A stretch of 64,000 nt of DNA, taken from NCBI RefSeq assembly GCF_007556755.1, contig NZ_VJOO01000007.1, forward strand, positions 1 to 64,000, read 5' to 3'. Within the stretch, counting starts at the first letter, position 1. Every line of letters starts with the position of its first letter. A program made the translations under genes and the position numbers. Source of the stretch: Tepidimonas fonticaldi (lineage in GTDB: Bacteria; Pseudomonadota; Gammaproteobacteria; Burkholderiales; Burkholderiaceae_C). Shown piece after piece: positions 13,940 through 17,538 of the stretch. The notes beneath the pieces were generated by a model, which was given only the letters and a program-made list of their open reading frames with translations, made no database searches and was not told the origin of the DNA.

Positions 13940-14206
13940 ATGGCCAAAGAAGAATTGATCGAGATGCGCGGCACGGTCGACGAGATCCTGCCCGACTCCC
14001 GCTACCGCGTCACCCTGGAAAACGGCCACACCCTGGTCGCCTACACCGGGGGAAAGATGCGCAAGCACCACATCCGCATCCTGGCGGGCGACCGGGTGTC
14101 GCTGGAGCTGTCGCCCTACGACCTGAGCAAAGGCCGCATCACCTTCCGGCACCTGGAGCCGCGCACGGGCGGCGAGGCCCCCGCCGCCCGGCGCAAGCCG
14201 CGCTGA
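13940..14206 (+). CDS. infA: Translation initiation factor IF-1, long paralogue
   Basis: IF-1 binds the A site of the 30S subunit during initiation. The 88-residue protein has the S1-like OB fold ([22 protein letters not shown] ... [25 protein letters not shown]) plus a basic tail of about 16 residues (ARRKPR). Many Burkholderiales carry a short IF-1 in the ribosomal operon and a second longer copy such as this one, possibly condition-specific. A strong AAGGAGG stands at 13928-13934. It is convergent with glnS, with only 10 bp between the stop codons. Confidence 0.93.
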
Positions 14207-14216
14207 CCGGCGCGGC

Positions 14217-16283
14217 TCACTTGCCCCAGCTGTCCTTCAGGCCCGCAATCCGGTTGAACACCGGCCGCTCGGGCGTGTGGTCCACGCGGTCGGTGCCGAA
14301 ATAGCCGTGCCGCTCGAACTGGTAGCGCTCCTCGCGCGGGGCGTTCGCCAGCGACGGCTCCAGGTAGGCCGTCACCACCCGCAGGCTGTTGGGGTTGAGC
14401 GCGGCCTTGAAGTCCTTGCCACCGGCGTCGGGCTGCGGATCGGCGAACAGCCGGTCGTACAGGCGCACTTCGGCGGGCACCGCCTCGTGCACGCCCACCC
14501 AGGTCAGCGTGCCCTTGACCTTGACGGCGTCGGCCCCGGGCGTGCCGCTCTTGGTGTCGGGCACCACCGTGGCCAGCACGGCCGTGACGCGGCCGTCGGC
14601 GTCCTTCTCGCAGCCAGTGCACTCGACCACATAGCCGTATTTGAGGCGCACCTTGTTGCCGGGGAAAAGGCGGAAATAGCCCTTGGGAGGCTGCTCCATG
14701 AAGTCCTCCCGCTCGATCCACACCTCGGGGCCCAGGCTGAATGCGCGCAGCCCCAGCTCGGGCCGCTGTGGATGCACCGGGGCGCTGCAGGCCTCGCGGT
14801 GGTCGGCATCGCCAAACACCTGCGCCCAGTTGGTGAGTTTGAGTTTGACCGGATCCAGCACCGCCATGGCGCGCGGCGCCTTACCTTCCAGGTCGTCGCG
14901 CAGCGCGATCTCCAGGTTGCTGTAATCGATCCAGCCCCCGGCTTTGCTGACGCCGGTGCGTTCGCAGAACAGGCGGATGGCTTCCGGCGTGTAGCCGCGG
15001 CGGCGCAGACCGACGATGGTGGGCATGCGCGGATCGTCCCAGCCGCTGACGATGCCCTCGTCCACCAGTTGCTTGAGCTTGCGCTTGCTGGTGACCACGT
15101 AGGTCAGGTTCAGCCGGGCGAACTCGTACTGGTGCGGCAGGTTGAACGGCTCGATGCGGTGCGTCTCCAGCGCCGACGCCAGCAGCGGCGTGAACTGGTG
15201 CGTCTGCGTCTTGAGCAGCCCGAAGAACTCGCCCAGGTCGCGCAGCACCGCGTCGCGGTCGTGCTCCCACTTCGTGAACAGTGCCCGCATGCGCTGCTCG
15301 GGCTCGGTGTTCAAGCCGAGCTTGTGCGCGTGGTTGTGGCAGTGCAGGGCAAATTCCTTGCCCGCTTCCACCCCCTGCTGTTCGATGCGCTCGACGAGCT
15401 GGCGGGCGCGCTCGAACTGCGGTGCGCGCAGGATCGGCACGATGCGCTCGAGCAGCCAGTCGTAGAACGGCCGCTGGTCCTCGAATTCCAGGGTGCAGAT
15501 GCTATGGGTGATGTTCTCCAGCGCATCCTCGATCGGGTGCGCGAAGGTGTACATCGGGTAGATGCACCAGGCGTCGCCGGTGTTGTGGTGCGTCGCGTGC
15601 TTGATCCGGTAGATGGCCGGGTCGCGCAGGTTGATGTTGGGCGAGGCCATGTCGATCTTGGCACGCAGCACCATCGCCCCGTCCGCGTGGCGGCCGTCGC
15701 GCATCTCGCGAAAACGCGCCAGGCTCTCCTCGGCCGGGCGGTTGCGGTAGGGGCTGTCGATGCCGGGCTCGGTGAGCGTGCCGCGGTTGGCCCGCATCTG
15801 CTCCGGCGTCTGTTCGTCCACATAGGCGTGGCCGGTTTCGATCAGGTACTCGGCCGCCCGGTACATGAAGTCGAAGTAGTCGCTCGCGTAGTACAGGTGG
15901 CGGGTGCCGTGGGCCTCCCAGCTCCAGCCCAGCCATTGGACGGCGTCCAGGATGGAATCGACGTACTCCTGCTCTTCCTTCTCGGGGTTGGTGTCGTCGA
16001 AGCGCATGTGGCACACGCCGCCGTAGGCCTGCGCCAGGCTGAAGTTGAGCCAGATGCTCTTGGCATGGCCCACGTGCAGGTAGCCGTTGGGCTCCGGCGG
16101 AAAGCGCATGCGCACCCGGGCCGGGTCGGCCACGCCCCGCTCGTGGTGGCTGCCGTCACCGGGGCTGCCGCCCCACAGGCGGCCGTGGTAGCGGCCCTGG
16201 GCCAGATCGCGCTCGATGATCTGGCGCAGAAAATTGCTGGCAGCGGGCGGATGGGGGGAAGAGTGCGGGGCGTGATCGCTCAT
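14217..16283 (-). CDS. glnS: Glutaminyl-tRNA synthetase with a large insertion
   Basis: GlnRS charges tRNA-Gln. The class I HIGH motif is PPEPNGYLHVGH (HVGH at 70-73) and the KMSKS equivalent is VTSKRKL (about 397-403). The DPVKL and FNRIAGLKDSW C-terminal anticodon-barrel segments are intact. At 688 residues it is far longer than E. coli GlnRS (about 555). Part of the excess is an N-terminal extension; most is an insertion of about 100 residues (282-382) between YDWLLERI and PHQYEFARLNL in the catalytic core, containing HCHNHAH (314-320). The reading frame is continuous through it. The ATG at 16283 is the only suitable start. Confidence 0.95.
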   Translation of the reverse strand: MSDHAPHSSPHPPAASNFLRQIIERDLAQGRYHGRLWGGSPGDGSHHERGVADPARVRMRFPPEPNGYLHVGHAKSIWLNFSLAQAYGGVCHMRFDDTNPEKEEQEYVDSILDAVQWLGWSWEAHGTRHLYYASDYFDFMYRAAEYLIETGHAYVDEQTPEQMRANRGTLTEPGIDSPYRNRPAEESLARFREMRDGRHADGAMVLRAKIDMASPNINLRDPAIYRIKHATHHNTGDAWCIYPMYTFAHPIEDALENITHSICTLEFEDQRPFYDWLLERIVPILRAPQFERARQLVERIEQQGVEAGKEFALHCHNHAHKLGLNTEPEQRMRALFTKWEHDRDAVLRDLGEFFGLLKTQTHQFTPLLASALETHRIEPFNLPHQYEFARLNLTYVVTSKRKLKQLVDEGIVSGWDDPRMPTIVGLRRRGYTPEAIRLFCERTGVSKAGGWIDYSNLEIALRDDLEGKAPRAMAVLDPVKLKLTNWAQVFGDADHREACSAPVHPQRPELGLRAFSLGPEVWIEREDFMEQPPKGYFRLFPGNKVRLKYGYVVECTGCEKDADGRVTAVLATVVPDTKSGTPGADAVKVKGTLTWVGVHEAVPAEVRLYDRLFADPQPDAGGKDFKAALNPNSLRVVTAYLEPSLANAPREERYQFERHGYFGTDRVDHTPERPVFNRIAGLKDSWGK

Positions 16284-16293
16284 GCCCCCGATT

Positions 16294-17538
16294 TTAGGCG
16301 GCCCCCGTCGCCAGACAGACCCGGTTGCGCCCGCCGCGCTTGGCGCGGTAGAGGGCCTCGTCGGCCTGGTTGATCAGGTACTGGTAATCCGGGTGGCCGC
16401 TGTAGGGCGCGACGCCGATGCTGGCGGTCAGCGACAGGTGCACGCCGTTGGCCAGCGCGAACGGTGTGGCGGCGATGCGCTGGCGCAGTTTGTCGGCCTG
16501 CTGCCGGGCCTGCTCGGGCGTGACGTCCACCAGCACGACGAGAAACTCCTCGCCGCCGTAGCGGAACACGAAGTCGCTGGAGCGCACGTCGTTGAGCAAA
16601 AGGGCGGCGGTTTGCTGCAGCACCAGGTCGCCCGCGTCGTGGCCGTGCTGGTCGTTGACGTGCTTGAAGTGGTCGATGTCCAGCATCAGCAGCGCAAACG
16701 GAATGTGCCGCTGTTGCGCCAGGTGGATCTCGCGCGCCAGGATCGGCGCCAGAAAGCGCCGGTTGAGCAGGCGCGTGAGGGCATCGCGCCCGCTTTCGAG
16801 CTCGACGTGGCGCTCGAACAGCATCTGCACCAGATACTGCAGGTTGTCGAGCTCGCCCTGCAATTGCATCAGCAGCGTGGCGCGGCGCGGATCGTCGATC
16901 GTGGTGGCCGCCAACTGCGGCAGCAGCGCTTCGTCCAGGCGCTGCATGCCCTGATGCACCAGATCGACCTCCGGCGCGCCGTCGAAGACGTTGCTGCCCT
17001 TGTGCATGAACCACAGGCCGAATTCGGAACTGCGCAGGGCGGGCAGCACCAAGGGCTGACCGCCGCGGTGCAGGGCAAAGAGCAGCTCCTGCCCCCAGTT
17101 GGCCAGCAGGAAGCGCTGGCGTTCGCGCTCGACCTGTAGATTCTGGCTCAGGGCATGCAGGCGAAAGGCTTCCTCGCTGCGCGCAACCCGTTGGGTGTCG
17201 CGCACGTAGGACTCGGCCATCAACTCCAGCGCCAGGTCGAACAACGCGCCGATGTGGGCCATCGAGGCTTCGACCAGCGCGGGCGCGGCCCCATCGGCGG
17301 CGATGCGCTGCAGCAGCCGTCCCTTGAGGAGCCGCGCGCCCCGGGCCACCAGATGCATGGGCAACTGGATGCGGGCGTGGACTTCGCCCACGTGGCGCTG
17401 GTGGGCCACGATGGCCGGCACGTCCTGCGCCGAGTGCAGGGCGAACAGCTCCGTCAGCCAGACCTGCAGGGAGGCGTGCAGCCTCTGGTGCACGACCTCC
17501 GCATCCAGGAAGGCCTGGGCCTGCTGGTGGGCCATCAT
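16294..17538 (-). CDS. Globin-coupled diguanylate cyclase (DosC/YddV-like)
   Basis: The protein is an O2-sensing enzyme that makes cyclic di-GMP. The N-terminal globin sensor contains EVHARIQLP, where H54 is the likely proximal heme ligand. A middle alpha-helical region (FGLWFMHKGS) resembles E. coli DosC. The C-terminal GGDEF domain has RYGGEEF near residue 324 and the inhibitory I-site RSSD five residues before it, so both catalysis and product inhibition should work. The first ATG (17538) falls after the codons for TGFYQD, which align with the DosC helix holding the distal Tyr. That open frame runs upstream to about 17650 without ATG, GTG or TTG, so the true start is unclear or the 5' end is damaged. 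Confidence 0.85.
   Translation of the reverse strand: MMAHQQAQAFLDAEVVHQRLHASLQVWLTELFALHSAQDVPAIVAHQRHVGEVHARIQLPMHLVARGARLLKGRLLQRIAADGAAPALVEASMAHIGALFDLALELMAESYVRDTQRVARSEEAFRLHALSQNLQVERERQRFLLANWGQELLFALHRGGQPLVLPALRSSEFGLWFMHKGSNVFDGAPEVDLVHQGMQRLDEALLPQLAATTIDDPRRATLLMQLQGELDNLQYLVQMLFERHVELESGRDALTRLLNRRFLAPILAREIHLAQQRHIPFALLMLDIDHFKHVNDQHGHDAGDLVLQQTAALLLNDVRSSDFVFRYGGEEFLVVLVDVTPEQARQQADKLRQRIAATPFALANGVHLSLTASIGVAPYSGHPDYQYLINQADEALYRAKRGGRNRVCLATGAA

Follow-up and report, generated by a model that had tools for sequence, protein, structure and literature searches.

The window – the whole stretch of Tepidimonas fonticaldi DNA analysed here, 64,000 nucleotides long – holds a glnS gene whose product, a glutaminyl-tRNA synthetase (GlnRS), carries a predicted helical insert that the Escherichia coli enzyme lacks. 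Against TIGR00440 the protein scores 673 bits, above the curated cut-off of 425.8, and is therefore a member of that family; against NF011291, a model of the GlnRS/YqeY fusion, it scores 778 bits, and the Pfam catalytic and anticodon-binding domains are both matched. Its best solved matches are structures of E. coli GlnRS (PDB 1qrt, 1gtr and others), and a model of the protein matches 1qrt across the whole fold (Z 34.5, rmsd 1.7, 529 residues aligned, 55% identity). The genome contains a single GlnRS gene – a second match, at 33%, is GluRS-like – and the nearest of the 127 GlnRS cores in the tree set, at 92%, comes from a Tepidimonas MAG.

Table. Features of the glnS locus, with positions in the window and residue numbers of the window's GlnRS.
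Feature	Residues	Position	Strand	Evidence or remark
infA, initiation factor IF-1		13940-14206	(+)	TIGR00008; convergent with glnS, the two ends 10 bases apart
glnS, glutaminyl-tRNA synthetase, 688 aa		14217..16283	(-)	TIGR00440, NF011291, Pfam domains and solved E. coli GlnRS matches
Downstream junction PHQYEF	383-388	15120..15137	(-)	aligned to E. coli QYEF; 384 and 386 associated with the insert
Inserted all-helical domain (predicted)	286-382	15138..15428	(-)	no E. coli counterpart; predicted helices; 31 diverse homologues aligned
HCHNHAH	314-320	15324..15344	(-)	His not conserved, Cys315 conserved in part (column counts)
Upstream junction	277-285	15429..15455	(-)	277, 279, 280 and 281 differ with insert presence
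End of helix 133-149; Y146, T150 and H152 co-vary	146-152	15828..15848	(-)	column test, model helix
N-terminal linker of the Burkholderiales type; co-variation at 33 and 34, strongest at 45	33-45	16149..16187	(-)	
GGDEF diguanylate cyclase gene		16294-17538	(-)	directly upstream of glnS, same strand

When E. coli GlnRS is aligned to the window's GlnRS with phmmer, residues 57–282 and 383–688 find counterparts and the 100 residues between them are unmatched, facing four residues in E. coli. The E. coli enzyme (1qrt, 1gtr) has the same whole core, and differs in lacking the helical insert and about 22 residues of the N-terminal linker. The original prediction, which had read an insertion at 15138–15440 (residues 282–382), was right that it is absent from E. 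coli, in frame, helical – as AlphaFold2 predicts – and placed just before the QYEF/KMSKS-type segment; its extent can be drawn more sharply, to residues 286–382 or about 97 amino acids. The accompanying statement that it sits in the catalytic core was loose: the position before the QYEF/KMSKS-type segment stands, but what the insert replaces is a linker joining two core elements. Within the PHQYEF segment, Q385 aligns with the glutamine of the E. coli QYEF motif and is presumably the counterpart of E. coli Gln255, a residue of the glutamine pocket. The reading frame of the insert is continuous with that of GlnRS and has no stop; an intein or intron was considered and judged unlikely, the insert being in frame, uninterrupted and under selection, in a genome with one GlnRS gene.

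An AlphaFold2 model of the GlnRS, built on 38 aligned sequences, has a mean pLDDT of 86 and places helices in the insert at residues 287–302, 305–316, 327–341, 345–348, 350–359 and 361–374. Ten-residue blocks across residues 281–380 reach pLDDT values of 87–96, in a model whose shallow alignment (38 rows) leaves parts of the known core, for example 263–268 and 215–217, below 50. Modelled alone (43 sequences), the insert forms the same helices at a mean pLDDT of 79.5, and the models thus predict a compact unit, wholly helical, that can fold by itself.

Within the collections covered, searches for known relatives of this unit gave little. Foldseek against the PDB returned nothing at E <= 0.001 (best E 2.6), and the best of the 55 chains compared by VIA-align reached Z 3.8, with an rmsd of 4.3 over 78 residues. 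The insert with its flanks matched none of the Pfam and NCBIfam families; among 31 insert members searched against Pfam the best E was 0.012, the window's own best match being CARD, at 14.2 bits against a cut-off of 23.9. The best E was 0.24 for PDB sequences and 0.015 for PHROGs, and predicted viral structures yielded no match at E <= 0.001. Outside GlnRS, no homologue was found in the plasmids or phages searched, and none of 28 pattern matches in viral contigs was confirmed. The open-licence literature searched contained no description of the insert.

Within GlnRS, the insert is real but patchily distributed. Relatives were found at 48 loci of public genomes, of which 47 could be read as GlnRS carrying the insert in the same position – among them loci from Tepidimonas, Caldimonas, Curvibacter, Polaromonas, Rubrivivax, Aquabacterium, Azohydromonas and Methylibium – while the match at the 48th (L080) covers 61 residues only. 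In the window's own family, a whole-protein search of 60 genomes gave nine with an unbroken match through the insert, one genome without a match and a few with weak or fragmentary matches only; a further 21 loci fetched from this search all have an ordinary stretch of 20 residues, the remaining genomes being judged by broken matches only. In a second family of Burkholderiales, by contrast in frequency, the insert was matched in 57 of 67 genomes, and in 38 of the 39 of good quality. These relatives, together with the 14 genomes with the insert among 399 sampled across the order, show that it is not an artefact of assembly or of chance.

Beyond these families the insert thins out quickly. The 14 order genomes found at E <= 0.001 comprise that of the window, 12 from the second family and a single one from a third; a wider profile at E <= 0.1 raised the count to 28 of 399, namely the same 14 strong matches and 14 weak candidates (E 0.0026–0.08). 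The class sample, searched with a single-sequence query, gave one genome in 185, the window's own, and the phylum sample at E <= 0.001 one in 299, the own genome again, with the match in GlnRS; the wider profile at E <= 1 brought 15 genomes from the phylum, and after the own genome the strongest of these reached E 0.0096, over part of the profile. No confident match to the insert was thus seen in the order, class and phylum samples beyond the window's, second and third families. Searches with GlnRS itself gave a similar picture: insert-type breaks occurred in five of 120 order genomes (that of the window, three from the second family and a single one from the third), matches of GlnRS strength being absent in 14 of these 120, and among 94 class genomes, which include a few partial or split genes, the break was found in the own only. 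The majority of sampled GlnRS proteins are without the insert.

Some individual genes in these collections are unusual in other ways. One family genome has two GlnRS genes (G010:C8 and G010:C3), both insert-free by their match coordinates. At G056:C1:3293684-3295499 (L024) the GlnRS is split across two frames near residue 505, by a frameshift or a sequencing error, and this locus has a long branch in the GlnRS core tree. At L039:3104-5716 the GlnRS frame is 871 residues long, roughly 170 beyond its relatives at the C-terminal side.

The linker that receives the insert appears, from the alignments, to be a hotspot of insertion and deletion: other additions at the same place comprise 10 residues in each of L154 (f167) and L171 (f168), 18 in L245 (G071) and three in L256. 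In Xanthomonadales GlnRS, an 18-residue conserved signature insert has been described within residues 239–295 of that protein (PMC3568101), and it probably lies at the same linker site; by its size and region, the L245 insert, which is placed at exactly this site, may correspond to it. The Xanthomonadales insert differs from the present one in length – 18 residues against about 97 – and no sequence link between the two was seen. Another bacterial GlnRS with added sequence is that of Deinococcus radiodurans, with a chain of 851 residues (PDB 2hz7).

The addition in the Deinococcus enzyme lies at the C-terminus and not inside the nucleotide-binding fold. As for the present insert, its history was followed on a tree of 127 GlnRS cores from which the insert had been cut out; there, its presence changes 11 times, at least seven of these changes being forced by supported branches. 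Carriers in the window's family are scattered on the tree of the remaining GlnRS: among 63 rows, 40 with the insert – most of which were fetched via the insert itself, so that sampling is uneven – presence changes nine times, six of them forced by supported branches, and a single clade of carriers is rejected (p-AU 2.9e-5, with LG+G4 and a quick tree).

The 23 insert-free rows of the own family and 26 rows of ordinary length from other families share the linker consensus FYDWLLERLAEGGLLARPLP. Over the 11 residues at the linker's end, insert-free family rows match it at 5–10 positions and carriers at best at 2–5. As a counterpoint, the linker is not specially conserved, its identity between the two insert-free groups being 56% against 64% for the rest of the protein. 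Simple deletion of the insert would be a poor account of its absences, because it would not restore the ordinary linker; we infer that the insert was more likely gained several times, or that exchange with insert-free genes took place. On a tree of the insert itself, eight second-family rows and the third-family row lie nested among window-family rows; a single clade for each family was nevertheless not rejected (p-AU 0.257 and 0.294), and transfer of the insert between families is accordingly not claimed.

The presence of the insert is associated with residues elsewhere in the enzyme. For each variable core column, association with the insert over 63 rows was compared with that of traits simulated on the tree at two rates. 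Of 422 such columns, those at 45, 146, 150, 152, 281 and 384 were associated with the insert at q 0.012 at both rates, and those at 34, 277, 279 and 280 at q <0.05 at both; 33, 386 and 473 fell below 0.05 at the faster rate only, residue 473 (q 0.043) although there is no known reason for it to touch the insert. Positions 277–281 and 384–386 are the junctions, and 33–45 and 146–152 are distant in sequence. Long linked flanks do not explain the pattern, since association some 10 to 60 residues away from the junctions does not rise above its level in other places.

The two strongest remote positions can be followed across families. In the family-survey rows – nine carriers, and 23 insert-free rows made up of the 21 best-scoring insert-free family loci and two from the order search – residue 45 is T, S or D in all nine carriers against one of the 23, and residue 150 is T in eight of nine against one of 23. 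The second family, which is a single lineage on the GlnRS core tree, repeats this: T, S or D at residue 45 in 32/35 rows compared with 5/23 from other, insert-free families (five gapped rows dropped), and T at residue 150 in 27/35 compared with 1/28. When independent pairs on supported branches are compared within the window's family, residues 45 and 150 change with the insert in 5.0 and 4.9 of six pairs and never the opposite way, a weak result on six pairs (median p 0.0625); residues 146 and 152 do so in only 2.7 and 2.5 of six. Over all 127 rows, residue 150 agrees in 5.8 of seven pairs (median p 0.031), and for residue 45 at least some pairings include one contrary pair. An observation on the same region is that the extra N-terminal linker of about 22 residues (33–55, window 16119–16187) is present, insert or not, in the 17 Burkholderiales rows compared, and absent in 21 of 30 other class members, those in which the stretch could be read.

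The simplest reading of these remote residues is that they form a docking surface for the insert, and the matching changes elsewhere in the enzyme are what point to docking on its own body. We consider it rather probable that the insert is a lineage-specific accessory helical domain, docked on its own enzyme and tuning stability or the glutamine pocket. On this view a small helical bundle interrupts the linker that joins the helix FYDWLLER to the PHQYEF segment, folds by itself and would dock on a surface of the same enzyme, made up of the end of helix 133–149 (146–152) and the N-terminal linker (33–45). So docked, it might stabilise that half of the nucleotide-binding fold which runs into Q385 and the SK loop, with the effect of tuning stability or the glutamine pocket and with no added chemistry, metal site or tRNA contact. 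The data show the insert, its conservation, the purifying selection on it, its predicted helical fold, its patchy distribution and the co-variation of remote residues; contact between those residues and the insert, and any effect on function, we infer. Points against this view are the weakness of the pair comparison, the association of residue 473, the shallow alignment behind the model and the many GlnRS proteins that lack the insert.

A somewhat unlikely alternative is that the insert is a neutral passenger, long present and tolerated in a linker prone to indels, the remote changes being mere compensation; since such an insert could be docked too, this reading overlaps with the accessory domain, and the probabilities of the two do not sum to one. 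The 10-residue inserts of two rows and the 18-residue insert at the same site speak for it, as does the evolutionary rate: in 15 chosen close pairs, the dN/dS of the insert is 0.04–0.37 in 14 (the 15th has no synonymous difference) and exceeds that of the core in 12 of these 14. Yet the values lie far below 1, and the insert is under purifying selection. Its retention in nearly all good second-family genomes, and the recurrence of the same remote residues in separate lineages, also count against a passenger.

The insert could, less plausibly still, be a docking site that tethers GlnRS to a partner such as an elongation factor or a tRNA-modifying enzyme, with the co-varying residues as its seat. 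A helical bundle at a surface linker, patchily distributed, would suit this, and human GlnRS occurs in a complex with other factors (4r3z). Of the 27 columns of the insert that are invariant in nine sequences, however, 21 hold F, W, L, A or P, residues of a buried or structural kind, and the neighbouring infA and diguanylate cyclase genes suggest no partner; none was identified.

In other synthetases, inserted or appended domains serve tRNA binding, which lends some appeal to the distinctly improbable proposal that the insert is an extra contact with tRNA-Gln, improving its recognition. Loci for tRNA-Gln were found in 44 of 45 genomes searched, and 41 with a UUG gene were compared, the three without one being dropped; among these 41 (16 with the insert, 25 without), no tRNA-Gln(UUG) column was associated with insert presence at p < 0.01; some carriers and non-carriers have identical genes. 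On average the insert has a small negative net charge, -2.1 over the 40 rows of the window's family (range -6 to 3) and -1.5 over the 35 of the second family (range -5 to 3). An extra tRNA-binding role is thus unlikely.

The original prediction had further proposed that the alternating His and Cys of HCHNHAH bind a metal, and a metal-binding module built on this cluster is scarcely credible: Cys315 is invariant across the 40 insert rows from the window's family, whereas the four His vary (His314 in 25, His316 in 32, His318 in 24, His320 in 10), and in 35 insert rows of the second family Cys is found in 20 and Ala in 15, His314 in 15, His316 in eight and His320 in four, while the insert persists. 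A search for conserved ligands among the four His and one Cys thus failed, and a metal site is unlikely because the cluster is not conserved. In the model, HCHNHAH forms the end of helix 305–316 plus a turn, so that every second side chain would not share a common face. The full cluster of the window is a local feature.

Going beyond the docked accessory domain, one may tentatively picture a domain that moves between lineages by short-tract recombination, replacing the linker and each time drawing the same remote compensating changes. If this doubtful idea were true, the remote residues would amount to an intramolecular docking code, and the domain could switch glutamine activation.

GlnRS, a textbook example of a class I synthetase, has a nucleotide-binding fold that is generally regarded as almost invariant among bacteria. 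Here, a patchily distributed insert, predicted to be folded, adjoins the presumed glutamine pocket, and a remote surface changes in step with it. The co-varying residues predict the contact surface in a form specific enough to be tested, and the natural pairs of enzymes with and without the domain, acting on the same tRNA, may reveal how an added domain fits into an essential enzyme.
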